From: Methanomassiliicoccus luminyensis B10
GTDB taxonomy: Archaea; Thermoplasmatota; Thermoplasmata; Methanomassiliicoccales; Methanomassiliicoccaceae
DNA length: 64,000 nucleotides
Assembly (NCBI RefSeq): GCF_000308215.1
Contig: NZ_CAJE01000004.1
Coordinates: 62,001 to 126,000 of the forward strand
Direction of reading: 5' to 3'
How positions within the stretch are numbered: the first letter of the stretch is position 1; each line of letters opens with the position of its first letter. A program made the translations under genes and the position numbers. Under the pieces are notes generated by a model. It searched no databases. It was given only the letters and a program-made list of their open reading frames with translations, and was not told the DNA's origin. Shown here one piece after another: positions 15,001-38,016 of the stretch.

Positions 15001-15160
15001 GCCCGGAACTATTGGAGGAATTCAAAGATATGGTTTGTTATCATAAGAGAGAACACAAAGTGGGCATCATGCAGGGGCCTGCAGCCCATGCCTGGTCAAT
15101 GCGAAATAAAAGGTTTGGAAGGGGTTTGGAACAGGATTTAGGTGGTAGACGTGGTCATCT

Positions 15161-16429
15161 TCAATGGGTTGCGCCACTCACCTCCCTGTCGGCCTCTGCT
15201 CCCATCTCGTTCAGTGCCGAGGCGCTCGACGGCATCTCGTTCTTTATGAAGTCGAGGTCGTCGTTGAAGAGCAGCTCGTCGGAGATCTTGCCGCGCGTAA
15301 CTCTGACCACAGCGCCCACGATGGCGCCTGTGACCAGGGTTATCAGCGCGACCGATACTGCCGCGATGGCGTTGGTCGCGCTGCCGACGATCAAGGCCGC
15401 GGCCAGCGCTCCGGTCCAGCCGCCCATACCGTGCAGGTTGTGCACGCCCATGACATCCATCGCCCCGATCTTCTTGGTCAGCCAAGGCTGCAGGTAGATG
15501 AACGACAGGGCGGACACGACACCGGCGACCAGGCCGATGACGAGAGCGCCCCATTGGTTCACCGACAGCAAGGGGGAACCGATGGCTACCGGGCCCGCGA
15601 GCATGGCATAAGTGAAGATGAGCGGGTTCACCTTCTTCTGCACTGCCTGGCAGACGATGTAGGTCGTTATGATCGACCCGATGCCGGCCATATAGCAGGT
15701 AATCATGCCCCACGTCACCTGGTCCGCGGGCAGGAGCGAGGTCACGAACGATGGCCAAAGGATGAACAGCAGCATGCTGGCCAACCACACGAAGCTCACG
15801 CTGTGCGTGGTCGTGTACTGCGGCTCATTGAACGCTCTTTTATCTCTAATGGCCAACGCGACGCCCAGGCCGAAATATGCCGCGCACATGTGCACGAGTA
15901 TGGACCCTCCGGGATCGACCACTCCTGAAAGATACTGGAAAAGGAACCATTCGACGAAGGCGTAGATCGGCCCGAAGAGCGCCCCCACCATCAGGTACTG
16001 CCACATCTTGATCGTTCCCAGGAACACACCTATCGCGATCACCACCGTGATCGAACAGATGACCCCCCTTATCATGAGGGTCTGGTCCCATGCCTGATCG
16101 AAATAGAACTGTTGGGTCGCCATATATGCCAAGAAGCTGCCCGCGGTGACCAGAAGGGTGGCCAGGGCCACCCCCCATTCATACTTGCGTATGAATATCA
16201 TCAGGAAGGCGACCAGCATGAGCATGAACCAGATGTCCATGTTCTTGGAGTACTTGGTATTCTCATCCTGGATCAGGCTGCTGTCCGAAGTGCTCCCCGG
16301 CTCCCCCGACGGGGTCGTCAGCTCCTCTCCCGCGGCCGATACATTCCATGTCGCCACTATCATTATGGCAAGGCATGCTACGACCAATGCGATCATCATC
16401 TCCGTTCTTTTTTTCAATCTCATGTTCAC
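15161..16429 (-). CDS. Rh-type ammonium/methylammonium channel
   Basis: 422 residues from GTG at 16429 (ATG at 16423 is the alternative; ribosome site GGGAGGA precedes both). About 11-12 membrane helices. The twin pore histidines are H180 in GGSILVHMCAAYFGLG and H330 in DVMGVHNLHGMGGWTG. The VHNLHGM motif and the segment SKNMDIWFMLMLVAFLMIFI match Rh proteins more than bacterial AmtB. It is the third gene after mtmC1 and mtmB1, so it likely exports the ammonia released from monomethylamine or imports the amine. The codons joining it to mtmB1 contain only TAG stops in frame. Confidence 0.85.
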   Translation of the reverse strand: MNMRLKKRTEMMIALVVACLAIMIVATWNVSAAGEELTTPSGEPGSTSDSSLIQDENTKYSKNMDIWFMLMLVAFLMIFIRKYEWGVALATLLVTAGSFLAYMATQQFYFDQAWDQTLMIRGVICSITVVIAIGVFLGTIKMWQYLMVGALFGPIYAFVEWFLFQYLSGVVDPGGSILVHMCAAYFGLGVALAIRDKRAFNEPQYTTTHSVSFVWLASMLLFILWPSFVTSLLPADQVTWGMITCYMAGIGSIITTYIVCQAVQKKVNPLIFTYAMLAGPVAIGSPLLSVNQWGALVIGLVAGVVSALSFIYLQPWLTKKIGAMDVMGVHNLHGMGGWTGALAAALIVGSATNAIAAVSVALITLVTGAIVGAVVRVTRGKISDELLFNDDLDFIKNEMPSSASALNEMGAEADREVSGATH

Positions 16430-16464
16430 TATTCCTCCCTATCTCTCCTCCTTTGTCGTTGATC

Positions 16465-16485
16465 TTAAAAAAGTGAAAAAAGGGG
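16465..16485 (-). terminator. Oligo-T tract between mtmB1 and the Rh gene
   Basis: On the minus strand CCCC is followed by six T, CAC and six T just after the mtmB1 stop. Oligo-T runs are the usual archaeal transcription terminators. It should reduce read-through into the Rh gene, which begins about 35 nt later and may also have its own weak promoter. Confidence 0.5.
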
Positions 16486-16516
16486 TTTGTGGAGTCGTGC
16501 CAGATCTTCTGCCTGA

Positions 16517-17896
16517 CTACCTTATCGTCAAGCCGAACTCCCCGAGGGTCTTGACCGCGTTATCGTAGACCTTCAGGTACTCGTTGGTCGGCTTGACGGT
16601 CAGAACGTCGTAGCATTCGCGGAAGCTCTTGCCCTTGGGCGCCTTGGCATAGTCCTTCTCATAGGAGCTTATAAGGGCCTCCAGGATCTCGTTGACCTTG
16701 GAGACCTTCATGCCGGCCGTCGCTATGGCAGCCTCGCCCATGATCCTCGCTTCCATGCCGGTGGTGTAGTCCTGCGCGACACCCTTGGCGGCGGCGGAGC
16801 CCGATAGGAGCTCCCTTCCGCTGGCGGTATCCGTGATCGCCTGAGCGGCGGTCTCCAGCAGGCACATCTCCGTGCACGGCCCAGCTACCGGATAGTACTG
16901 GTTCGCCAGCAGGAGATCGCTGTTCGCGTCGACCGCGGCGGCAGCGTGGGCGGCGATCTGGAGCGTTTCCCTAGCCGTCGTTATGCCCCACCTGATGTGG
17001 ATCGGTCCGTCCAGGTGGAAGTTCCCGCTGAACAGGGCGAACGAGGACAGGGTGGTGGCGATATCAGAGATCGTGGTCTCCTCAACTCCACCAGTATATC
17101 CGCCGAAGATGGGCATCTGCTCTATCATGATGGTGTCGCCGTCGGCCGTCCATCCTGCGAGCATGTTGAGAGCGGCCATATCTATCTTGAGCTCATTGAG
17201 CTGAGAGCACTCGTGGCTATCGCAGATCCTCAGACCGGCTGGGCCATCGCTAGCGAGACGTCCCGCTGCGGACAGCGGGGTCTCCGGGCCCTATATGCCG
17301 AGGTTCGGTCTTCCGGCGCGAATGCGCGCCTCCTTCACCGCCCTGAGCTCGGCCATCATCGCCCTGATCTCCCAGGGGGTGTTGGTGGTGGCGGGGTGGC
17401 CCTCGATGGTGGCCATGACGCCGTTGACCAAGGTATCCACCGTCGCTTCCTGGGCGTAGGACTGCATCACTTGGATGAAGATGTCCTCCGAGACCGGCGC
17501 TCCGGTGGGGCCGCCCTGAATGATAGGCTTTACCGGGGAGTTGCCCTTCCTCGGGTAGAAGCGGGCCATGTCCCTGCCCTCGCCGATATGTAAGAACTTG
17601 GGGGTCTTCTTGATCCCTTCCCAGACCTCTTCCTCGGTCACCTTGATGACCCTGCCGAGGTCCTGGTTATAAACTCCGGAGGTGACCAGCATCTCCAGGC
17701 CGGCCTGGAACAGGCGGTCCTTGAGGTCCTTGTCCTCAGGGATGATCTCCTTGCCGAACTTGATTTTGTATTTCTCCTTGAGCTTCGCGAGGTTCTGGGG
17801 GATGATCTGGTAGTCCCACTCAGCCTCGGTGACCTTCTGCCCCTTCTTTGAGCGCTCGTAGGTCTCGAAGATGTCTATGGGTCTGACTGGTGCCAT
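16517..17896 (-). CDS. mtmB1: Monomethylamine methyltransferase MtmB, copy 1, with amber-encoded pyrrolysine
   Basis: 459 residues including pyrrolysine at codon 202 (TAG at 17291-17293), the same position as in Methanosarcina MtmB. Flanking residues are AGRPNLGI-Pyl-GPETPLSAAG, and the downstream half holds QMPIFGGYTGGVEETT and ANQYYPVAGPCTEMCLLE. The enzyme moves the methyl group of monomethylamine to the corrinoid of MtmC, with pyrrolysine binding the amine. Start ATG, 4 nt after mtmC1. A second TAG at codon 460 acts as the stop at the normal family length. An ORF finder would split this gene in two. Confidence 0.95.
17255..17284 (-). promoter_or_regulatory. PYLIS-like hairpin after the amber codon of mtmB1
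   Basis: Seven bases after the TAG, the mRNA can fold GAGAC-CCCGC, an 8-base loop, GCGGG, two unpaired bases, then GUCUC. The same stem at the same distance follows the amber codon of mtmB2. The place matches the PYLIS element proposed for Methanosarcina mtmB. It is coding sequence too, so conservation alone does not prove an RNA role. Confidence 0.5.
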
Positions 17897-17900
17897 TTTT

Positions 17901-18542
17901 TCACCCCTTCATGAGCCCGTTCACCATCTCAACGGCCTGGGCACCAGACGGGCAATACTTGTCCCCGCCGATGCTCGCCACCCACTCTTCCGATGCAGGT
18001 GCGCCACCGAAAATGGTCTTGATATTCACGCTCCCCTCCTTCACGAGGTCGACGATCTCCTTCTGGACGACCATGGTGGTGGTCATCAAGGCCGAGGCCC
18101 CCACGACCTTGGCCTTGTTCTCATCCGCCGCCTCTATGAACTTCTCCGCCGGCACGTCCCTCCCCAGATCGACGACCTTGTAGCCCGCGCCGCGGAGCAT
18201 CGCCGCGACCACGTTCTTGCCGATCTCGTGGATGTCACCGTGCACAGTGCCCAGTACCACGGTCCCCTTGGCCGAGGCTACGCCGCCGGACATGGCCGGC
18301 CCCAGCACCTTCAACGCAGCTTCCATAGCGGTGGACGCCGCCAGCACCTGGGGCAGGTAGATCTTGGCCTCGTCGAACAGTGCGCTGATGGTCTCCATTC
18401 CCTTCCCGAGACCATTCTCAACAGCATCGCCGGGCTTTATTCCTGCGTCCAAGGCCTCCTTTGCGGCCGTCTCGGCAAGCTTTACGTCCCAAGTCTCAAT
18501 GGACTTTTTTAGACGTCCTAATATTTCATCATTTTTGCTCAT
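17901..18542 (-). CDS. mtmC1: Monomethylamine corrinoid protein MtmC, copy 1
   Basis: 213 residues. The N-terminal helical cap domain (to about residue 90) is followed by a B12-binding domain with the base-off motif GDIHEIG; His105 should coordinate cobalt. GASALMTTTMV and TIFGGAP are also family motifs. It carries the methyl group from MtmB to the MtbA methyltransferase (not in this window). I chose the ATG at 18542 because GGGAGG lies 8 nt before it; the frame extends ten codons further upstream. First gene of the mtmC1-mtmB1-Rh operon. Confidence 0.93.
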   Translation of the reverse strand: MSKNDEILGRLKKSIETWDVKLAETAAKEALDAGIKPGDAVENGLGKGMETISALFDEAKIYLPQVLAASTAMEAALKVLGPAMSGGVASAKGTVVLGTVHGDIHEIGKNVVAAMLRGAGYKVVDLGRDVPAEKFIEAADENKAKVVGASALMTTTMVVQKEIVDLVKEGSVNIKTIFGGAPASEEWVASIGGDKYCPSGAQAVEMVNGLMKG

Positions 18543-18942
18543 TTTATCTTCCTCCCTTGCGTTTTTATGCATGGTATAAAAAGTTTGAGTGTTTATTGTA
18601 TAACATGTATATTAAACAGTAGTATTGAACAGTAAATGTTAAATACTGAACTTAAGGACTTTATAACTAAAAAAAGTAAAATTTATATATGCATCAGATT
18701 ACTGGCCTGATTTTGATAGTAATTATTATATATGGACTATGTTTTTCTCATTGTTCGTAGGGAATGACGATGAGGGCGCTGATGAAACGCGGTCCGTTCA
18801 TTGCTAGTTCTTCGTTGGCAACCCTGCCTATGCGCTCGATCTCGAGCACTCGTCATCAGGGGATCGCGCGCTGCCAAATCCGTAAAGATCGTTCTCCTCC
18901 GACAACATCATTCGAGGCCCGCAAAGGCTTACGTTTAACGAT
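18543..18942. promoter_or_regulatory. Divergent mtmC1 / pylT control region
   Basis: A 400-base gap, very AT-rich from 18570 to 18740. Candidate TATA boxes are AATTTATATATG (about 18678-18690) for the minus-strand mtm operon and TATTATATATGG (18723-18734) for the plus-strand pyl operon. Two direct copies of TAYTGAAC (18623-18630 and 18644-18651) lie 21 bases apart, two turns of the helix, and AGTATT/AATACT (18621-18626, 18642-18647) form inverted arms: likely activator or repressor sites. The GC-rich stretch 18760-18940 before the tRNA holds no convincing gene. Confidence 0.5.
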
Positions 18943-19010
18943 GGAGGGTTGGTCAGGGACCGCCAGGCCTCTACAGCCACGGCAGCCGGGTTCGACTCCC
19001 GGGCCCTTCG
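18943..19010 (+). tRNA. pylT: tRNA-Pyl, anticodon CUA
   Basis: 68 nt without encoded CCA. Acceptor stem GGAGGGT pairs fully with GCCCTTC, with G as discriminator base. One base (T18950) precedes the D stem GGTC-AGG-GACC, which has a 3-base loop. The anticodon arm is GCC-A-GGC, loop CTCTACA, GCC-AC-GGC, so the stem is interrupted by unpaired bases. Anticodon CTA lies at 18971-18973. The variable region is only AG; the T arm CCGGG-TTCGACT-CCCGG is normal. Tiny D loop, short variable region and broken anticodon stem are marks of Methanomassiliicoccales tRNA-Pyl. pylS follows directly. Confidence 0.95.
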
Positions 19011-19047
19011 CTCACAACATTATGAATCCGAGGATGGGGGATGGCAA

Positions 19048-19875
19048 TTGATCTTCGACATGACCCCGTCCCAGAAGCAGAGGCTTAGAGAGCTGGGGAG
19101 GGTCCCCGATGAAGGGGCCGCGTTCAGTACGGCAGAGGACAGGGATGCGGCTTTCATCAAGGAGGTCGCCTATTATCAATCATATAACCGTAACGTGGTC
19201 AGGGACGCACTGGATGCGCCGAAGCGCCATCCCCTTTCTCATATGGAAGAGGTCCTGGCCCAAGCCCTCGTCGACGAGGGCTTCTTGGATGTCAAGACCC
19301 CCACGATAATATCTGGGGATTCCATTCGAAAGATGGGCATCTCCTGCGCCCACCCCCTGAACAAGCAGATATTCTGGGTCGACGGGACAAGATGTCTACG
19401 GCCGATGCTGGCCCCGAACCTGTACTTCCTCATGAGGCACCTGAAGCGCAACGCTCAGTTGCCGCTTCGTCTGTTCGAGATAGGTCCTTGCTACCGGATA
19501 GAGACTCACGGTTCGGACCACCTCGAGGAGTTCACGATGCTCAACTTGGTAGAGCTGGCCCCCCAGGGCGATCCATTGGCCCAGCTGCACCATCACATAG
19601 CGACGGTGATGGGGGCGGTCGGTCTCGACTACCAGCTTTGCGAGTGCGACTCCGAGGTCTATTCCCGAACGATAGATGTCGAGGTGGACGGGTCCGAGGT
19701 CGCCTCGGCCGCTCTGGGCCCTCATGCGTTGGACCGCGCCCATGGGATCGAGGACCCCTGGGTCGGAGTGGGCTTTGGCCTGGAGCGCCTGTTGATGTCA
19801 AAGAGCGCCGAGAGCAACATCAGGAAGGTCGGGCGCAGCCTCATTTACTTACAGGGGGCAAGGATCGATGTATGA
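19048..19875 (+). CDS. pylS: Pyrrolysyl-tRNA synthetase, catalytic domain only
   Basis: 275 residues from a TTG start, the length I recall for Methanomethylophilus alvus PylRS. With this start the pocket residues fall at L121, Y126, N166 and V168, the numbers used for M. alvus. A ribosome site (GAGGATGGGGG) sits about 7 nt before the TTG; the first ATG (19060) would be 19 nt away. Class II motifs are GPCYRIETHGSDHLEEFTML and GFGLERLL. The N-terminal PylSn domain of Methanosarcina is absent, as in this order. It charges pylT with pyrrolysine. Confidence 0.95.
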   Translation: MIFDMTPSQKQRLRELGRVPDEGAAFSTAEDRDAAFIKEVAYYQSYNRNVVRDALDAPKRHPLSHMEEVLAQALVDEGFLDVKTPTIISGDSIRKMGISCAHPLNKQIFWVDGTRCLRPMLAPNLYFLMRHLKRNAQLPLRLFEIGPCYRIETHGSDHLEEFTMLNLVELAPQGDPLAQLHHHIATVMGAVGLDYQLCECDSEVYSRTIDVEVDGSEVASAALGPHALDRAHGIEDPWVGVGFGLERLLMSKSAESNIRKVGRSLIYLQGARIDV

Positions 19876-20965
19876 CAGCGAGGCCATGACCGGATCGTCA
19901 GAGGTGGAAGGGGTACTGCAGGAGGCCGTGGAAGGGAAGCGATTGGACCTGGAGGAAACGATATCGCTGCTCTCCGTAAGGGATCCCTCGACATTGGAGG
20001 ATCTATTCTGTGCCGCCAGGGAGGTCAAGGAGAAGAACTTCGGCAGCTCGGTGTTCTGCTATGGTTTCGTTTACTTCTCCACCCACTGCCGCAATGACTG
20101 CTCTTTCTGCTATTACAAGCGATCCAACACGGACATCGCAAGATACAGGAAGACGGATGAGGAAATCGTCGCTCTTTCCTCGGACCTGGAGGATTCCGGG
20201 GTCCATCTGGTCGACCTTACCATGGGCGAAGACCCTGTAATCCACAGGGAGAACGGCTATCATCGGCTTGTCGAGGTCGTTCAGAAGGTCAACGATTCCG
20301 TAGATGTGCCCTTGATGGTATCCCCCGGGGTAATGCCGCAAGGTTCCTTCCGGGACCTGGAACAAGCGGGTGCGGACTGGTTCGCCTGCTATCAGGAGAC
20401 CCATAATCGCGGGCTGTTCAGAAGGCTGAGGCCCCACCAGGACTATGATGAAAGGTTCTCTCAGAAAAAATGGGCGATGGGCTCAGGCATGCTGGCCGAA
20501 GAAGGCATCATGATCGGCGTGGGCGAGAGCATCGAGGACAGGGCATGGTCCATCCAGACCATGAGGGACCTGGGTGTACACCAGGTGAGGGCAATGACCT
20601 ACATCCCCCAGCAGTGCGGCCGGACATATGGCTCGACCTCGACGATGCTGGATGAGCTGGTCACCCTGGCGGTGATGCGCCTGGTGCACCCGGATAGGCT
20701 GATACCTGCCAGTTTGGACATCGAAGGCCTGAACGGGCTGAGGCCGAGGCTTGAGGCGGGGGCCAACGTCATTACCTCGATAATACCTCCGAACAAAGGC
20801 CTGGCGGGAGTGGCGCAGCACGAGCTGGACATTGAGTGCGGAGGTCGCACTGTCGATCAGGCCAGTGAGGTGCTGGATGATCTGGGCGTTCGAATGGCCC
20901 CTTCCTGCGCATACAAGGACCTCATCGAGGACTGGAAGAGATCGATCGCGGTCGGAGGGGGGTAG
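19868..20965 (+). CDS. pylB: 3-methylornithine synthase, radical SAM
   Basis: 365 residues. The radical SAM cluster motif is Cys74-x3-Cys78-x2-Cys81 in HCRNDCSFCYYKR. PylB rearranges L-lysine to (3R)-3-methyl-D-ornithine, the first step of pyrrolysine synthesis. The ATG overlaps the end of pylS by 8 nt, so translation is probably coupled; a second ATG six codons later is possible. The stop codon is TAG (20963-20965). If read as pyrrolysine it would add roughly 45 residues before a TGA, through the start of pylC in another frame, so I treat it as a stop. Confidence 0.95.
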   Translation: MYDSEAMTGSSEVEGVLQEAVEGKRLDLEETISLLSVRDPSTLEDLFCAAREVKEKNFGSSVFCYGFVYFSTHCRNDCSFCYYKRSNTDIARYRKTDEEIVALSSDLEDSGVHLVDLTMGEDPVIHRENGYHRLVEVVQKVNDSVDVPLMVSPGVMPQGSFRDLEQAGADWFACYQETHNRGLFRRLRPHQDYDERFSQKKWAMGSGMLAEEGIMIGVGESIEDRAWSIQTMRDLGVHQVRAMTYIPQQCGRTYGSTSTMLDELVTLAVMRLVHPDRLIPASLDIEGLNGLRPRLEAGANVITSIIPPNKGLAGVAQHELDIECGGRTVDQASEVLDDLGVRMAPSCAYKDLIEDWKRSIAVGGG

Positions 20966-20969
20966 GAAG

Positions 20970-22139
20970 TTGAGGCTTGGGATCGTTGGAGGTGCCCTCC
21001 AGGGAATAGAAGCGGCCTATCTGGCGAAGAAAGCGGGCTACGATACTATTGTCATCGACCGTCGGAAGACCGCTCCCGCGCTGTCTCTGGCTGACGAAGC
21101 GGTGGTGCTTGATGTGGAAAAACATGAGCCCATGGCAAAGAAGGTCCTTTCCCAGTGCGATGCGGTCATTCCGGCAAATGAGAACCTGTCCACCTTGGTA
21201 GCGCTCGACAAAATGTTCCGCGAGATTAGTATTCCTTTCATATTCGACCTGAGCGCGTACAAGCTGTCCTCATCGAAGGCGCTCTCGAACCGATACCTCG
21301 AAGGGCTGAACGTGCCAACTCCGGCCCGCTGGCCTTATTGCGGGCTCCCGGTGATCGTAAAACCCTCCGGCCAAAGCGGAAGCGTGGGGGTTGCGATGGC
21401 CACCAACGAGGCGGAGGTCGAACGGGGGGAGCGGAGGGTCCGCGAGCTCGGCGACGAAGCGATCATACAGGAGTTCGTGGAGGGCACGAGCATCTCCATC
21501 GAGGTGATCGGGGACGGCGAAAAGGCCGTCCCGCTGACCCTGACCGAAGTGGTGACCGACGATACCTACGATTGCAGGATGGTGCGCTGCCCGGTCGACG
21601 GGCTGGACAGGGGTGTCGCCGAGAGCTTCAGCCGCTGCGCGAGAAAGATCGCCGAGGGGCTGCGCCTGCGCGGGATAATGGACGTCGAGGCCATCGTTCA
21701 TAATGACATCCCCAAGGTCCTGGAGATCGATGCCCGCATCCCCAGTCAAACCCCCATCGCGGTATATCACGCGACCGGGCTGAACATGGTCGAGCTGCTG
21801 GTCAAAGCGGTGGCCTGCGGAGAGCTGGATGAGAACCCTCCTGTCCGCAATGGCGCCTCGATCTACGAGCATATCGCCGTTGATGATGGTTCCGTGAGAT
21901 CGTGCGGAGAGGGGATATTCTCGGAGGTCCGGCAGCCCCGGATCCAAGCGGGCCTGTTCGGCTCGGACGAAATGATAACGGACTTCTCCCCCGACAAGAA
22001 GAGCTGGAGGGCAACGATCATATGCGCCGGCCCGACCGCGCAGAGCGCGTGGTCCAAGCGGGTGGATTGCATCGGGAGCATCATGCGGCAGAACGACCTG
22101 GCCGGATGCGATGAGCTTCACGCGGGGGTGGCATTTTGA
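20970..22139 (+). CDS. pylC: Methylornithine-lysine ligase (ATP-grasp)
   Basis: 389 residues from TTG at 20970, placed so that the N-terminal Rossmann-like motif LGIVGGALQGIEAAYLAKKAG starts the protein. The ATP-grasp core follows (VIVKPSGQSGSVGVA, then the metal-binding end KVLEIDARIPSQTP). PylC joins methylornithine to the epsilon-amine of lysine using ATP. It begins 5 nt after pylB and overlaps pylD by 4 nt. The open frame upstream of the TTG is antisense or shadow coding within pylB. Confidence 0.93.
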   Translation: MRLGIVGGALQGIEAAYLAKKAGYDTIVIDRRKTAPALSLADEAVVLDVEKHEPMAKKVLSQCDAVIPANENLSTLVALDKMFREISIPFIFDLSAYKLSSSKALSNRYLEGLNVPTPARWPYCGLPVIVKPSGQSGSVGVAMATNEAEVERGERRVRELGDEAIIQEFVEGTSISIEVIGDGEKAVPLTLTEVVTDDTYDCRMVRCPVDGLDRGVAESFSRCARKIAEGLRLRGIMDVEAIVHNDIPKVLEIDARIPSQTPIAVYHATGLNMVELLVKAVACGELDENPPVRNGASIYEHIAVDDGSVRSCGEGIFSEVRQPRIQAGLFGSDEMITDFSPDKKSWRATIICAGPTAQSAWSKRVDCIGSIMRQNDLAGCDELHAGVAF

Positions 22140-22993
22140 CCCGACTGACCCCGGACATGATCAGCAACGTCCCCCGCTCCCTCGTTAAACGAGACGCCGA
22201 TCTCGTGAGCGACCTCGACATGACGCTCAAGGACCTGGCATATCGCTCGGTCGGCATCGGCCCCCATGACCTCGTCATGGAGGGGTTCGTGGCCGCTTCT
22301 GTCCCGGTCTCCTCCGGGAAGGGCATAACCGGAGGTTTCTCGGAATCGGTCTGCTCGATCCTGGAGCATCTCGGCATGTCCGCGTTCACCACCCGCCGGC
22401 CCGATGTCGCCGGGCTCAGCGACGCCGTGGCGGCCAAGGCGGACATAATATTCATGGCCGACGACGAGGAGTTCGTGGCCTTGAACCGGCACGCCGGCAA
22501 GGCCGTGAACAATACGAGGTCCACCGCCCTGGGCTACGTCACGGCCCTCAAGAAGGCGGTGGGAGGGCTGAACGGGAAGGACGTCCTGCTGATCGGCGCG
22601 GGACGAGTGGGGTCCTGCGCGGCGGAGCTGCTCGTCCGGGAGAACGCGCGGGTGACCGTGTTCGACATCGATAGGGAGCGAGCTAAGGCCCTCCAGAATA
22701 AGTTCGATGGATTGAGGGCATGCTCGGACCTCAGGGAAGCGATGCTCGGGAGCATGATGATATTCAATGCCTCCCCCGCCACGATCCCCGGGGAATGGGT
22801 CCGCGAAGGAGCGGTGATATCCTCACCGGGCATGCCCTTTTCCTTTGACGAGGCGGGGATCGATAAGGCTAGGACGATCATTCATGATCCCCTGCAGCTC
22901 GGCGTGTCGGTCATGGCCGTCTGGAGTGCCAGTCTCACCATGCTCAGGGCACCGATATCGTTGAGCAACGCGGTCGGCCTGGAGGTCTACTGA
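22136..22993 (+). CDS. pylD: Pyrrolysine synthase, final oxidation and ring closure
   Basis: 285 residues from a TTG inside the pylC stop region. The N-terminus MTRLTPDMISN aligns with MALLTPEDLEN of Methanosarcina PylD, supporting this start over the later ATG. NAD-binding motif VLLIGAGRVGSCAAELL lies in the second half; MADDEEFVALN and NAVNN-like segments match the family. It oxidises lysyl-methylornithine, which cyclises to pyrrolysine. The TGA overlaps the ramA ATG (TGATG). pylS, pylC and pylD all appear to use TTG. Confidence 0.93.
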   Translation: MTRLTPDMISNVPRSLVKRDADLVSDLDMTLKDLAYRSVGIGPHDLVMEGFVAASVPVSSGKGITGGFSESVCSILEHLGMSAFTTRRPDVAGLSDAVAAKADIIFMADDEEFVALNRHAGKAVNNTRSTALGYVTALKKAVGGLNGKDVLLIGAGRVGSCAAELLVRENARVTVFDIDRERAKALQNKFDGLRACSDLREAMLGSMMIFNASPATIPGEWVREGAVISSPGMPFSFDEAGIDKARTIIHDPLQLGVSVMAVWSASLTMLRAPISLSNAVGLEVY

Positions 22994-24654
22994 TGGGCGA
23001 CATAGTTATCGCGCTGGACCTCGGCACCAGCGGCTTTAGGGCCCAGGCCGTCGATCTCGATGGCCGCAAGACCCTCTCTACCGCGGTGACCACCCGCCAT
23101 CCCATCCCCGGTTCTAACGTCATCGATCACGTCAACTTCGCCATCGATGTGGGGATGGAGCGAAGCAACAGGCTCATCATGGATACGCTGAACCGCCTTC
23201 TCCCCATGCTCCGCGTCGATCTGGAAAAGGTCACCAGGATCGCGGTGTGCGGGAACCCCTTTCAACTTTCGCTCTTTCAGAACATCGAGATACGCGATCT
23301 CGCTTACGCTGGAAAAAAGATGTTGGAATCGCTCAACGTGGTACCGCCAAAGCGGGACGGCGATATCGTTCCCGCGAACGGCCTGGGCCTCCGGGGGATG
23401 CCGCGGGCGTCCGTGATAGTTCCCCCCGCGGTAGGCCACGAGATAGGGGCCGATGCGCTGGCCATGCTGCTGGTCACAGGCGCGATGGAGCAGAGCGAGC
23501 CTTGCCTGGTCGTAGACTACGGGACCAATGCGGAAATGGCCCTGATCAAGGACGGAAAGGTATATTCCGGTTCGGCCGCGGCAGGGCCCGCGCTGGAGGG
23601 CCAGCAGATAGAGATGGGCATGCTGGCGGCCCCCTACGCGATATCTGAGGTCAACATGCGCGGCCAGTGCTGGGACTGCTGGGTGCTGGACGAGCGCTTC
23701 GACCCCCTGGAGGGGGACGCGGTCGACCCCAGAACGGGCGAGGTCAAGAGGATGGGAAAGATGCACGCCCGGGCCAAAGGCATCACCGGGACCGGGGTGG
23801 TGGCCGCACTGGATTGTGGGATCAGGAGCGGCCTGGTGGAAATGCTGAAGGTGCGCACTCCCGATGAGCGGCTGCATCTCCAGGACGGGATCTATGTCAC
23901 GGGGGATGACATCATGGAGGCGGGGAAGGCCATCGGCGCCATACGCGCAGGCTACCTCACCCTGATGAGGGCGGCCGGGCTATGGGTGGATGACGTGCCC
24001 CTGTCCCTCATGTCAGGGGCGTCGGGACTGTACGTGGACGCGATCAAGGCCCAGAGAGTGGGCATGGTCTCCCCGGGGTCCCGCAAGATAGTCCAATACG
24101 GCAACACATCCCTTGTGCTGGCCAAAGAGCTTGCCATTGGAAAGATGGAGCTGGACGACCTGAGGGAACTGGCGCGCAACCTCCGGGCCACTCATTGCAT
24201 GTTCGCTACTTCAGAGGTGTTCAAGAACATCTACTCGATCGAGCTCTCGCTGTGGCTGTACGGCATGCCGAGGCATGCTTACAACGATATGCTGGACATT
24301 TATGGGCTCCCTCACCTGCGCCTTGAGCCCATCGACGCGATCGTAGAGCGAAAGATGAGCCGGGACATCTCTGACGTGGGGAGCGAAGGGCTCGCCATAC
24401 TCCAGGACCCCGGGACCGTTCTGGTCGGGGAGCTAGAAGGGTGCATAATGTGCGGCAAATGCTCGGACTCCTGTCCAGAGGACGCACTGACGATCAGGGA
24501 AGGCGACCCCTTTCCAACAGCAACGATCCGTTCCGACCTATGTGCGGGAACGGCGTGCAAGCGGTGCGAGCTGTCCTGTCCCGAACATGCCATCCTAATA
24601 AAAGACCTGGAATTAAAGGAGAACGGACGGCGCGGGGAGGTGCCACTGGTATGA
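22993..24654 (+). CDS. ramA: RamA, corrinoid protein reductive activase
   Basis: 553 residues. An ASKHA-type ATPase body (ALDLGTSGFRAQAVDLDG at the start, VVDYGTNAEMALI in the middle) ends in two [4Fe-4S] sites: C-x2-C-x2-C-x3-CP in CIMCGKCSDSCP and C-x4-C-x2-C-x3-CP in CAGTACKRCELSCP. RamA uses ATP and low-potential electrons to return inactive Co(II) corrinoid to Co(I) in methylamine methyl transfer. It shares one base with the pylD stop, so it is part of the pyl operon. Its usual size is about 540 residues. Confidence 0.95.
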   Translation: MGDIVIALDLGTSGFRAQAVDLDGRKTLSTAVTTRHPIPGSNVIDHVNFAIDVGMERSNRLIMDTLNRLLPMLRVDLEKVTRIAVCGNPFQLSLFQNIEIRDLAYAGKKMLESLNVVPPKRDGDIVPANGLGLRGMPRASVIVPPAVGHEIGADALAMLLVTGAMEQSEPCLVVDYGTNAEMALIKDGKVYSGSAAAGPALEGQQIEMGMLAAPYAISEVNMRGQCWDCWVLDERFDPLEGDAVDPRTGEVKRMGKMHARAKGITGTGVVAALDCGIRSGLVEMLKVRTPDERLHLQDGIYVTGDDIMEAGKAIGAIRAGYLTLMRAAGLWVDDVPLSLMSGASGLYVDAIKAQRVGMVSPGSRKIVQYGNTSLVLAKELAIGKMELDDLRELARNLRATHCMFATSEVFKNIYSIELSLWLYGMPRHAYNDMLDIYGLPHLRLEPIDAIVERKMSRDISDVGSEGLAILQDPGTVLVGELEGCIMCGKCSDSCPEDALTIREGDPFPTATIRSDLCAGTACKRCELSCPEHAILIKDLELKENGRRGEVPLV

Positions 24655-24889
24655 GGCGCGGCCGTTCACGAGATCTCGATGGGATGATGGCGGCCAGCTT
24701 CGCCGCTACATTCGATGGAAACATATTTGTTTGCACATCATCGATCGGCCCCCCATGGGGAAGGTAACGAGGGCAATCGGTTTGCCAGCGTTCGACAGAA
24801 TGTCTGTCCCCCCCTCACTGGGAGGCCGCCATATCAAAGGAGGCCCGGAATTGCTGTGGAGGAGCAGCAATGGAGGGGGAGAGGAGGAC

Positions 24890-25537
24890 ATGACAGAAAA
24901 AGAAGAAGTGCTGGCGTTGTTGAAAGAGGCCGTGGAGACTTGGAACGTCGACATGTCCAGGGAGACGGCGGAATATGCGATGGACGTGGGCATAAACCCT
25001 TGCGAAGCGATCGAGAGCGGATTGAGCCAAGGCATGGCAAGCATCAGTTCCCGGTTCAGGGAGGGAAAGATCTTTTTGCCCCAGGTTATGGCGGCATCCC
25101 ATGCCATGGAAGAGGCCATGGAGGTCATCGAGCCGCACATATCCGCAAAGGCGCTGACCTCCAAGGGAGTGGTGGTCATCGGGACCGTGCAGGGCGACAT
25201 CCACGAGATCGGGAAGCACATCGTCGTAGCTTTCCTGCGCGGCGCAGGCTATAAGGTATATGATCTGGGCAAGGACGTCTCTCCGGACGAGTTCCTAGAG
25301 GAAGCGATCGAGAAGGGAGCGGACATCGTAGGGGCCTCGGCGCTGATGACGACCACTCTGGTGTATCAGCGGCGAATAATCGAGAGGCTCCGGGAAGAAA
25401 AGCTTAACAACATAAAGACAATATTCGGAGGAGCCTGTTGCACTCAGAAATGGGTAAGGGACATCGGCGGTGACGCCTATTGTGAATGCGGGGCGGAAGT
25501 CGTCGAAAGGGTAGATCAACTGATGTCGGAGGAATGA
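24890..25537 (+). CDS. mtmC2: Monomethylamine corrinoid protein MtmC, copy 2
   Basis: 215 residues from the ATG at 24890, preceded by GAGGAGG. The frame runs further upstream but lacks family similarity there. The B12 motif GDIHEIG puts the cobalt ligand at His105, the same number as in copy 1. It follows ramA after a 235-base gap containing an AT-rich AAACATATTTG (about 24718-24728), perhaps a separate promoter, and several purine-rich ribosome-like sites. It pairs with mtmB2 immediately downstream. Confidence 0.93.
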   Translation: MTEKEEVLALLKEAVETWNVDMSRETAEYAMDVGINPCEAIESGLSQGMASISSRFREGKIFLPQVMAASHAMEEAMEVIEPHISAKALTSKGVVVIGTVQGDIHEIGKHIVVAFLRGAGYKVYDLGKDVSPDEFLEEAIEKGADIVGASALMTTTLVYQRRIIERLREEKLNNIKTIFGGACCTQKWVRDIGGDAYCECGAEVVERVDQLMSEE

Positions 25538-25550
25538 CAGGAGGTCCAGA

Positions 25551-26933
25551 GTGTCGACCATCGAGAAGGGCTTGAACGTGTACGAGACGTTTCTCCGCTC
25601 CGAAAAAGGGCCCCGGGTCACAGAGAATGTATGGGACAATAAGATCGTCCCGAACGCAGCGGCGATGCTGAGGGAGAAATACGACATCAATTTTGGCGAT
25701 GAGTTCATCCCGACGGACCCCGACCTGAAAAAGCGTTTGTTCCTCGCGGGGATGGATATGCTGGTGTCGACGGGGATATACAACGTCGATACCGGCCGCG
25801 TCGTCAAGGTGACGGAAGAGGAGGTCAGGGCCCGCCTGAGGACGGCGCCCAGACGGGTCCAGCTCGGTGAATATCGCGACATGGCGATAATGAAGCCTCG
25901 GAAGGGCAACTCGCCGATCAAGCCCATCGTTCAGGGAGGGCCGACCGGGGCAACGGTCTCCGAGGACATGTTCATACCCATGATCCAGAGCTATGCCCAG
26001 GAGCAGGTGGTGGACACCATAGTGAACGGGGTGATGGCCACCATCGATGGGATACCGTCCACTGCTGATTCGCCCTTTGAGGTCAAGGCCACCTTGGCCG
26101 AGATAAGGAGCGCCCGGGAGGCCTGCAGCCGGGCCGGGCGGCCATACATGAGCATATAGGGCCCGGAGACCCCGCTGTCCGCGGCGGGACGTCTCGCCAG
26201 TGATGGCAAGGACGGTCTGAGGCCGACCGACAGCCACGAGGTCTCTCAGCTCAACGAACTGAAGATAGACAATGCAGGACTGAACATGATCGCCGGCTGG
26301 CTGAACAACGGCGATGTGATAATGGTGGAGCAGATGCCCCTGTTCGGAGGGTACACCGGCGGGATCGAGGAGACCGCGATATGCGATATCGCCACTACCC
26401 TGACCTCATTCACCCTGCTGAACGCGAGCTACCACTTGGACGGGCCGATCCATATCCGGTGGGGGACCACCACCGCTCGTGAGACGCTCCAGATCGCCGG
26501 TCATGCCGCCGCGGCCATCGACGCGAACACCGACCTGCTGCTGGCCAACCAGTACTATCCGATAGCTGGGCCGTGCACGGAGATGTGCCTGCTGGAGACC
26601 GCCGCTCAGGCTATGGTGGACACCGCCAGTGGAAGGGAGCTGCTGTCCGGCTGCGCGTCGGCCAAGGGCGTGGTGGAGGACTCCACCACCGGTATGGAAG
26701 CAAGGATGATGGGAGAAGCGGCCATAGCGACGGCCGGCATGAGCATCGACGACGTCAATGCCGTTGTCAACAAGATCGTCCGAAGCTATGAGCGGCATTA
26801 TCTGACCGCTCCTCAGGGCAGGACCTTCCAGGAGTGCTACAACGTTCGAAAGATCACCCCGACCAAAGAATACATCAAGGTCTATGATTCGGCCTGCGAC
26901 AGCTTAAGGGATTATGGGCTGGACATGCCGTAG
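25551..26933 (+). CDS. mtmB2: Monomethylamine methyltransferase MtmB, copy 2, with amber-encoded pyrrolysine
   Basis: 460 residues including pyrrolysine at codon 203 (TAG at 26157-26159). The context is AGRPYMSI-Pyl-GPETPLSAAG, and ANQYYPIAGPCTEMCLLE lies downstream. GTG start with GGAGGT five bases before it. Same reaction as copy 1. The terminal stop is also TAG (26931-26933); reading it would add pyrrolysine and 22 residues before a TGA at 27000. As this is the normal family end, I take it as the stop. Nucleotides just after the internal TAG are nearly identical to those in copy 1. Confidence 0.95.
26166..26195 (+). promoter_or_regulatory. PYLIS-like hairpin after the amber codon of mtmB2
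   Basis: GAGAC (26166-26170) and CCCGC (26171-26175) pair with GCGGG (26184-26188) and GUCUC (26191-26195) around an 8-base loop. The only difference from copy 1 is in the loop. It starts seven bases after the TAG, as in mtmB1. Confidence 0.5.
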
Positions 26934-35056: not shown

Positions 35057-36397
35057 ATGCAGATTGCGATCATAGGTGCCGGCACCGTAGGTTACGCGGT
35101 AGCGAGGATACTGTCGAGCCAGCACTCCGTCCTGGTGGTGGAGGAGGACGAGAAACGGTACGAGCACGTGATCAATACCCTTAACGTGGGGGCCATGAAC
35201 GCCAACGGGGCCAGCCCCAAGGTCCTGCAGAGGGTCATGAAGGAAAAGATCGACCTGTTCCTCGCCGTCACGGAGAGGGACGAGACCAATGTGTTCGCCT
35301 GCCTGGTGGCCAAGCAGATACGGCCGGAAGCGATCACCGTGGCCAGGATGCGGGACCATGACTACACTCAGGGGAGCAAGGTCTCCGAGTTCCTGGGGGT
35401 GGACGACATCATCTCCCCGGAGTACCTCATCGCGGCCAAGATGAAGAAGCTCGCCATGCTGAGGAACGCGGTGGACCACGAGTCCATGCCCTCCTTGGGG
35501 CTGGAGATCGCCAGGTTCCGGGTGCCCGGCAACGGCCGCACCGCCATCCCCATCACCGGCCTCAGCCTGCCCCGGGACTGCAGGATCCTGTCGATACGCC
35601 GGGGCGGGGAGATCCTCCTGCCCGAGGAGTACGAGAACCTGGTCTGCGGCGACGAGGTAGTGGTCATCGGGGACGAGGCCGGCATCGTGCAGTTCGACCG
35701 GGTCCTGGGGGTCGGGAAGAGGGCCCAGGACATTCTCATCGTGGGGGGCAGCATCATAGCCGACTATCTCCTGTGCATGCTGGAGAACGAGAAGGTATCG
35801 GTCCGGCTTATCGAGAAGAACGAGGCCCGGTGCAGGGAGCTGGCCCGCAAGTTCGATGGCGTGGTCATCATCAACGACAACGGCACCGACCCGCTGGTGC
35901 TGCGCAACGAGAACGTTGGCAACACTGATGTGCTGGTATGCACCACCAACAATGAGGAGGGCAACCTCCTGGCGTGCCTGGTGGGCAAGCATCTGGGCGT
36001 ATCCAAGACCGTCACCATGTACTCGAAGCAAGAGTACCGGGACATATTCCAGATGGCCGGCATCGACGCCGCCGTCGGCTACTACGGAGTGGTGGCCAAC
36101 GAGATCGTGAAGAAGACCGTCCCGGACTTCGAGGTGGTGCTGCTGATGAACGGCGCCAAGGAGGAGCTGATATCCCTCAAGGTGGGCTCCCGGAACCGCC
36201 TCAGGGACGTCCGCCTCGGCGATGCCAAGCTGCCCGACCGCACCTCCATCGCCGCGGTGATCAGCGACGGGACGGTCATAATCCCGGACCCTGACACCCA
36301 CATCATGGATGGTGATACCCTGCTGATCTACGCGGACCGGTCGGACATCTCCGTGCTGGAAAGGATGTTCCATGTCAATATCCCGGTGAGCCCTTGA
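35057..36397 (+). CDS. trkA: Potassium uptake regulator TrkA
   Basis: 446 residues with two repeats of an NAD-binding Rossmann domain plus TrkA-C domain: AIIGAGTVGYAVARIL at the N-terminus and ILIVGGSIIADYLL in the middle, ending in a TrkA-C domain. The first domain keeps GxGxxG; the second reads GGSIIAD. TrkA binds NAD(H)/ATP on the cytoplasmic side and gates TrkH. A purine-rich GGTGG precedes the ATG. The stop overlaps the trkH start by 4 nt. Confidence 0.93.
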   Translation: MQIAIIGAGTVGYAVARILSSQHSVLVVEEDEKRYEHVINTLNVGAMNANGASPKVLQRVMKEKIDLFLAVTERDETNVFACLVAKQIRPEAITVARMRDHDYTQGSKVSEFLGVDDIISPEYLIAAKMKKLAMLRNAVDHESMPSLGLEIARFRVPGNGRTAIPITGLSLPRDCRILSIRRGGEILLPEEYENLVCGDEVVVIGDEAGIVQFDRVLGVGKRAQDILIVGGSIIADYLLCMLENEKVSVRLIEKNEARCRELARKFDGVVIINDNGTDPLVLRNENVGNTDVLVCTTNNEEGNLLACLVGKHLGVSKTVTMYSKQEYRDIFQMAGIDAAVGYYGVVANEIVKKTVPDFEVVLLMNGAKEELISLKVGSRNRLRDVRLGDAKLPDRTSIAAVISDGTVIIPDPDTHIMDGDTLLIYADRSDISVLERMFHVNIPVSP

Positions 36398-38016
36398 AGT
36401 TGAGACGGAACGTGGTTAAGAAAGAGATCAAGGTAAAGCTCAAGAAGCCGGTCAAGAAGCGCCTGAAGACCTCGATCCACAAGCTCGGCCTGGACCGGTA
36501 CGGCCTCCAGGAGCGGATCGCCCGCAAGGAGGGCACCGTGCCCTACTTGTTCGGCCTCCTGATATCCTACATCTCCATCTCGTTCCTGGTGCCCATGTCC
36601 GTGGCTTTGTTCTACGGCGAGGACCCCCGGCCATGGATCTACCCGTGGCTGCTCACGACCATGGTGGGCATACCGCTGGTGCTGAGGTACAAGTCGTCCG
36701 TGACGACCCGGCCCACCGAGGCAATACTGGTGCTGACGACCGGCTGGTTCGTGGCCACCATATTCGGCGCGATACCGTTCGTCATGTACGGCATGGGCCC
36801 CCTGGACGCCATGTTCGAGACCCTGAGCGGCTTCACCACCACCGGGGCCACCATAATGCTGGACATAGAATCGTGGCCCAAGAGCCTGCTGCTGTGGCGG
36901 TCCTTCGTCCAGTGGCTCGGCGGCGCGGGCATAGTCATGATATTCGTCACCATCTTCCCCATGCTGGGGGTGGCCGGCCGCAACTTGGTCCGGAACGAGA
37001 CCACCGGCATGGACACCCAGAACGTCACCCTCCGGGTCCAGGCGGAGGCGAAGAAGTTCCACCTCATCTATCTGGGCCTCTCCCTGGCCCAGCTGGGCCT
37101 CCTGCTGCTGACCGGCATCGGCATATACGATGCGTCCACCGTGGTGTTCTCCACCATGTCCACCGGCGGGTTCTCGCCGCACACTCGGAGCATCGAGTAC
37201 TTCAACGACCCGGTGGTGGAGTGGATAATCATCGTGTTCATGTTCCTGGCCGGTACCAACTTCTATCTGCACTTCCAGGCCATCGCGTCCCGCAGCGCCC
37301 GGACGTACTGGCGCAACTCGGAGTTCCGGACCTACGCGCTGCTGGTGGTCTTGTTCAGCGCGGTGGGGGCGGCGCTGCTGTGGGGGGACTACGGCGGGGG
37401 CGTGGAGGCGAACATAAGGGCCTCCACCTTCCAGATGCTGTCGGTGATGACCTCCACGGGGTTCGCCACTACTGACTTTTCGATATGGAGCACCAGCCTC
37501 CTGTTCATGCTCTTCGCGCTGATGGTCATCGGGGGCAGCTCCGGCTCCACCGCCGGCGGCCTCAAGGTGATCAGGTTCGTCATCTCCCGGAAGTTCATTG
37601 CCGCGTCGCTGTACAAGACGGTCCACCCCAAGGCGATATTCTCCATCAAGCTGGACGGGCGGATACTGGGAGAGAACACGGTATCCTCGCTCATGGCGGT
37701 GGTGATGTGCTATCTCGGGACCATCGGGGCCTGCACCGTCGCGCTGGCCCTCATGGGCATCGAGCCCATGGTATCACTAAGCGCGGCCATGACCGCGGTG
37801 TCCAATGCCGGCCCCGCCCTGGGCAGCCTCGGGCCGATGGGTACGTTCGGCCTGCTCCCCGACCCGGCCAAGATGGTGCTCATGTTCGCCATGTGGGCGG
37901 GCCGTATGGAGTTCCTGACGGCGTTCGCGATCCTGACCCCGGCGTTCTGGCGGGAGCTGCTGAGGTACAAGAGCAAGGACGAGGCTTTCTCCAGGCTCCC
38001 GGAGCTTCAGAAGTAA
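36394..38016 (+). CDS. trkH: Potassium uptake channel subunit TrkH
   Basis: 540 residues beginning at TTG in the trkA stop region. After a basic N-terminus about 10-12 membrane helices carry four pore loops with filter-like segments: SGFTTTGAT, TMSTGGFSPH, VMTSTGFATTD and AVSNAGPALG. The GGSSGSTAGG loop is the family gate. It imports K+ with TrkA and is the first gene pair of the osmotic block. The last ten bases overlap the convergent aminomutase-family gene. Confidence 0.93.
   Translation: MKLRRNVVKKEIKVKLKKPVKKRLKTSIHKLGLDRYGLQERIARKEGTVPYLFGLLISYISISFLVPMSVALFYGEDPRPWIYPWLLTTMVGIPLVLRYKSSVTTRPTEAILVLTTGWFVATIFGAIPFVMYGMGPLDAMFETLSGFTTTGATIMLDIESWPKSLLLWRSFVQWLGGAGIVMIFVTIFPMLGVAGRNLVRNETTGMDTQNVTLRVQAEAKKFHLIYLGLSLAQLGLLLLTGIGIYDASTVVFSTMSTGGFSPHTRSIEYFNDPVVEWIIIVFMFLAGTNFYLHFQAIASRSARTYWRNSEFRTYALLVVLFSAVGAALLWGDYGGGVEANIRASTFQMLSVMTSTGFATTDFSIWSTSLLFMLFALMVIGGSSGSTAGGLKVIRFVISRKFIAASLYKTVHPKAIFSIKLDGRILGENTVSSLMAVVMCYLGTIGACTVALALMGIEPMVSLSAAMTAVSNAGPALGSLGPMGTFGLLPDPAKMVLMFAMWAGRMEFLTAFAILTPAFWRELLRYKSKDEAFSRLPELQK

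Follow-up and report, generated by a model that had tools for sequence, protein, structure and literature searches.

The gene at positions 15161-16429 (minus strand) of the window, by which we mean the whole 64,000-nucleotide stretch of the Methanomassiliicoccus luminyensis B10 genome analysed here, is confirmed as an Rh50-type member of the Amt/Mep/Rh superfamily, and its product probably works together with the monomethylamine (MMA) demethylation module of Methanomassiliicoccus by letting ammonia out of the cell. Ammonia exit during methylamine demethylation is the likely role, and methylamine entry is possible. The gene is very probably the published RH50 of M. luminyensis. Passages of Matassi 2017 (PMC5209957) describe a single copy each of RH50 and AMT for this species, with RH50 adjoining methyltransferases, and propose a link of Rh50 to methylotrophy and ammonia homeostasis; three methanogens with Rh50 were recognised at that time. 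Likewise, a passage of Borrel 2014 (PMC4153887) proposes that transporters beside monomethylamine genes export ammonium. The gene and its likely role therefore look to be already published, and an altered pore entrance and a bacterial cassette look like the added detail. The main text of PMC5209957 contains no word starting with "pore", "gate", "histidine" or "motif", and "Rh50" and "ammonium" are likewise absent from the main text of a survey published in 2024 that covered 243 genomes of the order (PMC10804542).

Genomic context of the Rh gene

The assembly comprises 2.62 Mb in 26 contigs, with the window located on contig 4 (C4). The Rh gene and the neighbouring methylamine and pyrrolysine genes are as follows:

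15161..16429, minus: predicted Rh50-type ammonia/methylamine channel gene; signal-like helix at the N-terminus followed by the Amt/Mep/Rh fold
16430..16516, minus: mtmB1-Rh spacer; CAAACCCCTTTTTTCACTTTTTT run followed by GGAGG, perhaps a terminator and, downstream of it, a separate ribosome-binding site
16517..17896, minus: mtmB1, monomethylamine methyltransferase, from its translation and the MtmB PF05369 match G000:C4:78529-79878 (one TAG)
17291-17293, minus: internal amber (pyrrolysine) codon of mtmB1, whose own stop is the TAG at 16517-16519
17194..17293, minus: PYLIS_1-like pyrrolysine insertion element beginning at the amber codon; scored at 53.6 bits (E of 3e-10), short of the gathering score of 70
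17901..18572, minus: mtmC1, corrinoid partner of MtmB1; TIGR02370 at 210.7 bits, slightly below the cut-off of 215.3; copy name per PMC5688252
18949..19875, plus: pylS (catalytic part); TIGR02367 at 258.5 bits, cut-off 178; true start probably within the frame
19868..20965, plus: pylB; TIGR03910 at 429 bits, cut-off 348
20832..22139, plus: pylC; TIGR03909 at 360.5 bits, cut-off 248; longest frame, start probably later
22136..22993, plus: pylD; TIGR03911 at 200 bits, cut-off 150
22993..24654, plus: ramA, corrinoid reductive activase; TIGR04270 at 713 bits, cut-off 500
24731..25537, plus: mtmC2, second corrinoid protein; B12-binding domains; TIGR02370 at 214.9 bits, slightly below the cut-off of 215.3
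25551..26933, plus: mtmB2, second monomethylamine methyltransferase, from its translation and the PF05369 match G000:C4:87572-88921 (one TAG)
26157-26159, plus: amber codon of mtmB2, whose stop is the TAG at 26931-26933

The Rh open frame encodes 422 amino acids from the GTG at 16429 or 420 from the ATG at 16423 and lies far beyond chance expectation (Pfam Ammonium_transp, E 8e-36; Nitrosomonas europaea Rh50, E 4e-49). The first-pass annotation had named no strand; the plus strand over the same positions consists of unrelated letters and a stop, and all of the motifs that it quoted are present in the minus-strand protein (FMLMLVAFLMIFI at residue 68, GGSILVHMCAAYFGLG at 174 and VHNLHGM at 329). 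It also placed the gene inside a methylamine operon. The positional part of that description stands, as Rh lies downstream of mtmC1 and mtmB1 with all three on the minus strand. The operon itself is less certain, since a T-rich run within the 87 nt separating mtmB1 from the Rh GTG could end transcription, so that mtmB1 and Rh may or may not be transcribed jointly.

T-rich runs of the form AAACC...TTT are found on the minus strand both before Rh (16477-16488) and after it (15106-15116), and each is the sole match to its own pattern within the 64 kb (0.04 and 0.03 expected). Similar runs come after many mtmB genes. When counted as AAACC-N(0-3)-TTT, the motif occurs upstream of Rh in 13/31 cases and 3' of mtmB in 14/19 cases with Rh next and 8/39 without, in counts that include some overlapping loci and one Rh start placed too far inside. 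A T-rich mtmB terminator fits this spacer motif at least as well as an Rh promoter. Both mtmB genes of the window stop at TAG, which is also their pyrrolysine codon, a trait not conserved among the relatives. Past the mtmB1 stop, the frame crosses a second TAG and continues into Rh (16439-16519, minus). An mtmB1-Rh readthrough fusion was considered as a general feature and rejected: among 19 measured pairs, Rh is in frame in 9, and mtmB ends in TAG in 2.

A tRNA-Pyl gene is expected beside pylS, and the letters near 18941-19010 presumably resemble one; neither ARAGORN nor Rfam reported a tRNA at 18572-19080. The layout on contigs 4, 5 and 23 agrees with passages of an expression study of M. 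luminyensis (PMC5688252), which place two mtmBC clusters on contig 4 with pylBCD/pylS between them and another two on contig 23, where pylC and PII accompany one cluster; contig 5 is given a candidate MMA transporter (35060-37315). Correspondingly, we found mtmB at two places on C4 and at two on C23, with P-II near one of the latter, as well as an APC permease match at G000:C5:35120-36337 that corresponds to the candidate transporter. Outside the window, an mtmB-mtmC copy at G000:C23:82670-87981 has GlnK, Amt and stretches resembling pylD and pylC close by, and it looks as if it were a version of the methylamine module on the nitrogen side.

Assignment to the Rh family

The first-pass annotation had called the protein Rh-type rather than AmtB-type, and this was borne out by sequence scores, the Amt model, the tree, the fold and the position of GlnK. 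Its bit score was 171 against N. europaea Rh50, 113 against RhCG and 109 against RhAG, compared with 31 against the archaeal Amt-1 of Archaeoglobus fulgidus, and a profile built from 30 sequences gave the same ranking (NeRh50 217, RhCG 154, RhAG 153, AfAmt1 29). With the amt model TIGR00836 (cut-off 343) the protein fails at 78 bits, whereas the genome's own Amt passes at 419. In a tree of 72 rows, it clusters with Rh50, RhAG and RhCG (33 rows, SH-aLRT 100), apart from 39 Amt rows comprising 37 Amt sequences, EcAmtB and AfAmt1; placement inside the Amt/GlnK-regulated clade, which the first-pass annotation had named as the outcome that would speak against its assignment, did not arise. This tree was a quick search that omitted the Rh rows L059 and L062 and contained no Mep sequence, and the tool warned of the long branch between the Rh and Amt groups.

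The predicted structure (pLDDT 82, pTM 0.81) has no extra folded domain. In a second comparison of Foldseek's best 1000 PDB chains, three NeRh50 entries ranked first, followed by 7uzq_Q and RhCG and then by Amt. The genome holds one Rh and one Amt, together with six GlnK/P-II matches distributed over C12, C13, C23 and C24. The end of one of these on C23 lies 17 nt from the genome's own Amt match, and none of the six is on C4, the contig of Rh.

An altered pore entrance

The central pore is conserved. All 32 relatives have the twin histidines, the DPGGS-motif Asp and the inner Phe, and the equivalents of AmtB D160, H168, W212, F215 and H318 are likewise retained in 32/32. This set is taken without the G053 fragment and without the Acetohalobium, Methanosalsum, Citricoccus and Trichomonas members of Matassi's clade. 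One Rh protein (L070:1091-2335, from G046) has VQSLHG in place of the VHNLHG of most others and retains the pore His.

The outer gate is changed. At the position of AmtB F107, the outer gate phenylalanine, the 32 relatives have Ile (27), Val (4) or Ala (1), with Ile in the window protein, and the alignment is gap-free around this residue. The Phe is present in NeRh50, RhCG, RhAG, EcAmtB, AfAmt1 and 33/33 readable Amt rows, the other four of the 37 Amt rows (which include a few repeats) having trimmed starts and being blank in the columns of the outer Phe, W148, D160 and H168. The position of AmtB W148 is not Trp in 30 of the 32, although it falls in a gappy stretch, and NeRh50, RhCG and RhAG are also without Trp there. 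The column of the Amt-type S1 serine (Ser219) is a gap in 31/32 and Gly in one, a gap in NeRh50, RhCG and RhAG, and Ser in 37/37 Amt rows.

According to literature passages, AmtB remains active when F107 is changed to Ala or Leu, and W148L raises its methylammonium transport. Because AmtB with F107A or F107L is active, the loss of the outer gate Phe is a lead rather than proof of a new substrate. Judging from its residues, a pore lacking this Phe may pass methylamine as well. A lineage without it would offer a natural protein for testing the effect of the residue on methylamine versus ammonia.

Linkage of Rh to mtmB

Across the Methanomassiliicoccales, Rh is present in 31 of 147 genomes, all of which fall within the 99 that have mtmB and none within the 48 that do not (Fisher p 8e-7, for related genomes that are not independent). 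Among the matches listed, 29 genomes have both genes, and in 27 of these Rh lies at most 2.4 kb from mtmB. The other two have Rh on short contigs, and in one of them (G049) an mtmB piece directly precedes Rh. The same is true of G013 and G021, whose mtmB lies outside the 29-genome comparison. Overall, the link holds in 30 of the 31 Rh genomes; the exception, G053, is unreadable at this point and its contig bears ramA-pylDCB. Within a 389-genome sample of the phylum, the Rh search returned 17 matches, of which 12 were strong and confined to the order. The remaining five, weak at 34-40 bits, look Amt-like, with four coinciding with Amt rows and the fifth being G467. The presence of Rh only in mtmB-containing genomes of the order suggests an Rh channel tied to one reaction with ammonia as a by-product. 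This would be of value given that passages of PMC5209957 and of reviews describe prokaryotic Rh50 genes as rare and of disputed natural function.

Rh matches are absent from 68 of the 99 mtmB genomes, some of which are incomplete assemblies, and 14 of 88 mtmB genomes have neither an Rh nor an Amt row among the matches listed; on this basis, the methylamine module seems able to run without Rh. Amt was considered as a regular substitute beside mtmB and rejected, being occasional rather than general: of the 84 Amt rows listed, 3 lie no more than 5 kb from mtmB and 5 no more than 10 kb. Genomes G100, G134 and G125 carry an Amt 1-5 kb from mtmB. Two further loci are of note. The Rh of G010 lacks its first ~110 residues and its frame continues from sequence resembling reversed mtmC, which looks like an assembly join or a rearrangement (L062/L007). 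In G014 (contig C25), mtmB is followed at the contig end by an apparent Rh start that is cut off (L110), and this genome may be a 32nd Rh carrier.

A related cassette in Synergistaceae

Two contigs of Synergistaceae metagenome-assembled genomes (MAGs) carry Rh-mtmC-mtmB(amber)-pylS-pylB-pylC-pylD in this order (L009:4738-12275 and L010:5085-12910). The MtmB pieces of the two are ~95% identical and the Rh proteins 74%. Among 52 Synergistaceae genomes, Rh and an amber-bearing mtmB occur only in these two. An mtmB-like gene without an amber codon, and without Rh, is found in 14 of the 52 (e.g. L120 and L121). The Synergistaceae Rh rows group with two Methanomassiliicoccales rows (SH-aLRT 99), and the MtmB rows are placed elsewhere, on a long branch. 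A comparison with L124 and L125 shows a single clearly shared gene near the cassette and does not locate the point of insertion. Misbinning of the contigs was considered and is not supported, as two other members of the family have counterparts, at 69-70% identity, of a gene near the L009 cassette and the cassette G+C tracks that of the host contig (0.595 versus flanks of 0.574 and 0.608; 0.512 versus 0.43 and 0.512).

These loci suggest that the channel is able to travel with pyrrolysine and methylamine genes. Methylamine use in Synergistota is not itself new, since a passage of PMC10653893 reports methylamine genes in 59 Synergistota gut MAGs. Similarly, an Rh50 in a pyrrolysine-using bacterium is not new in itself, since Matassi (PMC5209957, in passages) noted both pyrrolysine genes and Rh50 in Acetohalobium. 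A network analysis (PMC7824343, in part) has two Synergistaceae co-occurring with a taxon. Among the matches listed from the literature on pyrrolysine or methylamine in Synergistaceae/Synergistota, no paper concerned the Rh cassette by title or abstract, and the cassette may be new. A more far-reaching proposal, which we put forward tentatively and as a minority view, is that a distinct Rh lineage without the outer gate Phe acts as a methylamine-in/ammonia-out exchanger and belongs to a movable Rh-mtmC-mtmB-pyl cassette crossing between Methanomassiliicoccales and Synergistaceae.

Proposed role and alternative explanations

The analysis establishes the family, the predicted fold, the retained pore histidines and the mtmB linkage, and we infer the direction of flow, the substrate and any joint expression with mtmC1-mtmB1. 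The first-pass annotation had suggested monomethylamine entry or ammonia exit. A role of this kind fits the mtmB linkage across the order, and either of the two is compatible with the sequence. In the established pathway, MtmB1 and MtmC1 release one ammonia per monomethylamine. Removal of the methyl group would leave this ammonia in the cytoplasm, and the channel would then pass it down its gradient out of the cell, either as NH3 or as NH4+ split into NH3 and H+. The missing outer gate Phe might also admit methylamine, and a two-way passive exchanger would be the result, which is our guess. The need for a channel is weakened by the ability of NH3 to cross membranes unaided. Growth on trimethylamine (TMA) and dimethylamine (DMA) also ends in ammonia, and for this reason induction of mtmC1 on TMA, DMA and MMA fits exit better than methylamine entry. 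By qRT-PCR, as given in passages of PMC5688252, mtmC1 rose 130-fold on TMA, was high on DMA and was the sole mtmC copy high on MMA, and the rise of mtmC3 on TMA was negligible. The mtmC3 copy is the one near PII and Amt, matched via the accession order in that study. From the expression of mtmC1 versus mtmC3, we take Rh to be the outlet for ammonia from the energy-yielding copy, with Amt-GlnK serving nitrogen uptake, on published measurements that were of mtmC1, not Rh.

Several other functions have to be weighed against ammonia exit. The main job of the protein could be the entry of monomethylamine for MtmB1, either as the neutral amine or through the splitting of methylammonium at the pore. 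The exchange of the outer gate Phe for Ile, Val or Ala in every relative speaks for this, as do the general lack of Trp at the W148 site, where Leu raises methylammonium transport by AmtB (in literature passages), and the neighbouring mtmC1, which is the one copy high on MMA. Even so, we consider it doubtful. The same passages of PMC5688252 report a separate candidate MMA permease, matched by the APC gene on C5, and AmtB transport survives a change of the outer Phe alone (again in literature passages), so its loss need not alter the substrate. Moreover, mtmC1 is strongly up on TMA too, a condition under which MMA forms in the cytoplasm and would leak out through a methylamine pore, and a passive channel would be unable to concentrate MMA.

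Rh might instead stand in for Amt in nitrogen uptake from ammonia, as a passage of PMC5209957 suggested for Ca. M. intestinalis, which is without Amt. In agreement with this, 11 of the 29 genomes in which both Rh and mtmB were listed show no Amt row among the matches listed, some of them being incomplete, but the other 18 hold both genes among those matches. M. luminyensis has its own Amt with GlnK directly adjoining, the S1 serine column is a gap in nearly all of the Rh proteins, and Rh adjoins mtmB rather than glnK, all of which makes such a substitution quite improbable. Still less credible is a channel mainly for some other small neutral molecule such as CO2, or a protein that has lost transport and become a sensor or scaffold. 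A role as channels for CO2 or for gases in general has been put forward for Rh proteins (passages of PMC5209957 and of reviews), but the full retention of the twin His, Asp and inner Phe, a linkage to mtmB, whose product is ammonia, and a predicted model without an additional folded domain all argue against either function. Ammonia exit is the role that we favour.

Comparison with known systems

The window gene shares with the Rh50_prok_meth clade of M. luminyensis and Ca. M. intestinalis, as passages of PMC5209957 describe it, the arrangement of a methanogen Rh50 next to methyltransferases. The present analysis goes beyond the three methanogens of that set to 31 genomes of the order and the two MAGs from Synergistaceae, and adds the change at the outer gate. 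The closest solved relative in both sequence and fold is the Rh50 of N. europaea (3b9w, 3bhs, 3b9y), which moves NH3/methylammonium according to review passages. It has VHNLHG in common with the window protein, and 3b9w aligns with it over 347 residues at 31% identity (Z 49.4), the sequence score of this Rh50 being 171 bits; unlike the window protein, with Ile at the outer position, it retains both gate phenylalanines. Human RhCG (3hd6, Z 45.8) and chain Q of the RhAG-RhCE complex 7uzq (Z 47.0) belong to the same clade as the window Rh. RhCG and RhAG are next-best in sequence (113 and 109 bits, 27-28% identity) and likewise keep both gate phenylalanines. E. coli AmtB and A. fulgidus Amt-1 share the overall fold, at best Z values of 41.7 and 40.3, as well as the twin His and the inner Phe, yet they differ from the window Rh in being only ~19-20% identical to it, in forming a separate clade, in an S1 serine that is not common to both, and in that the Rh contig carries no GlnK gene.
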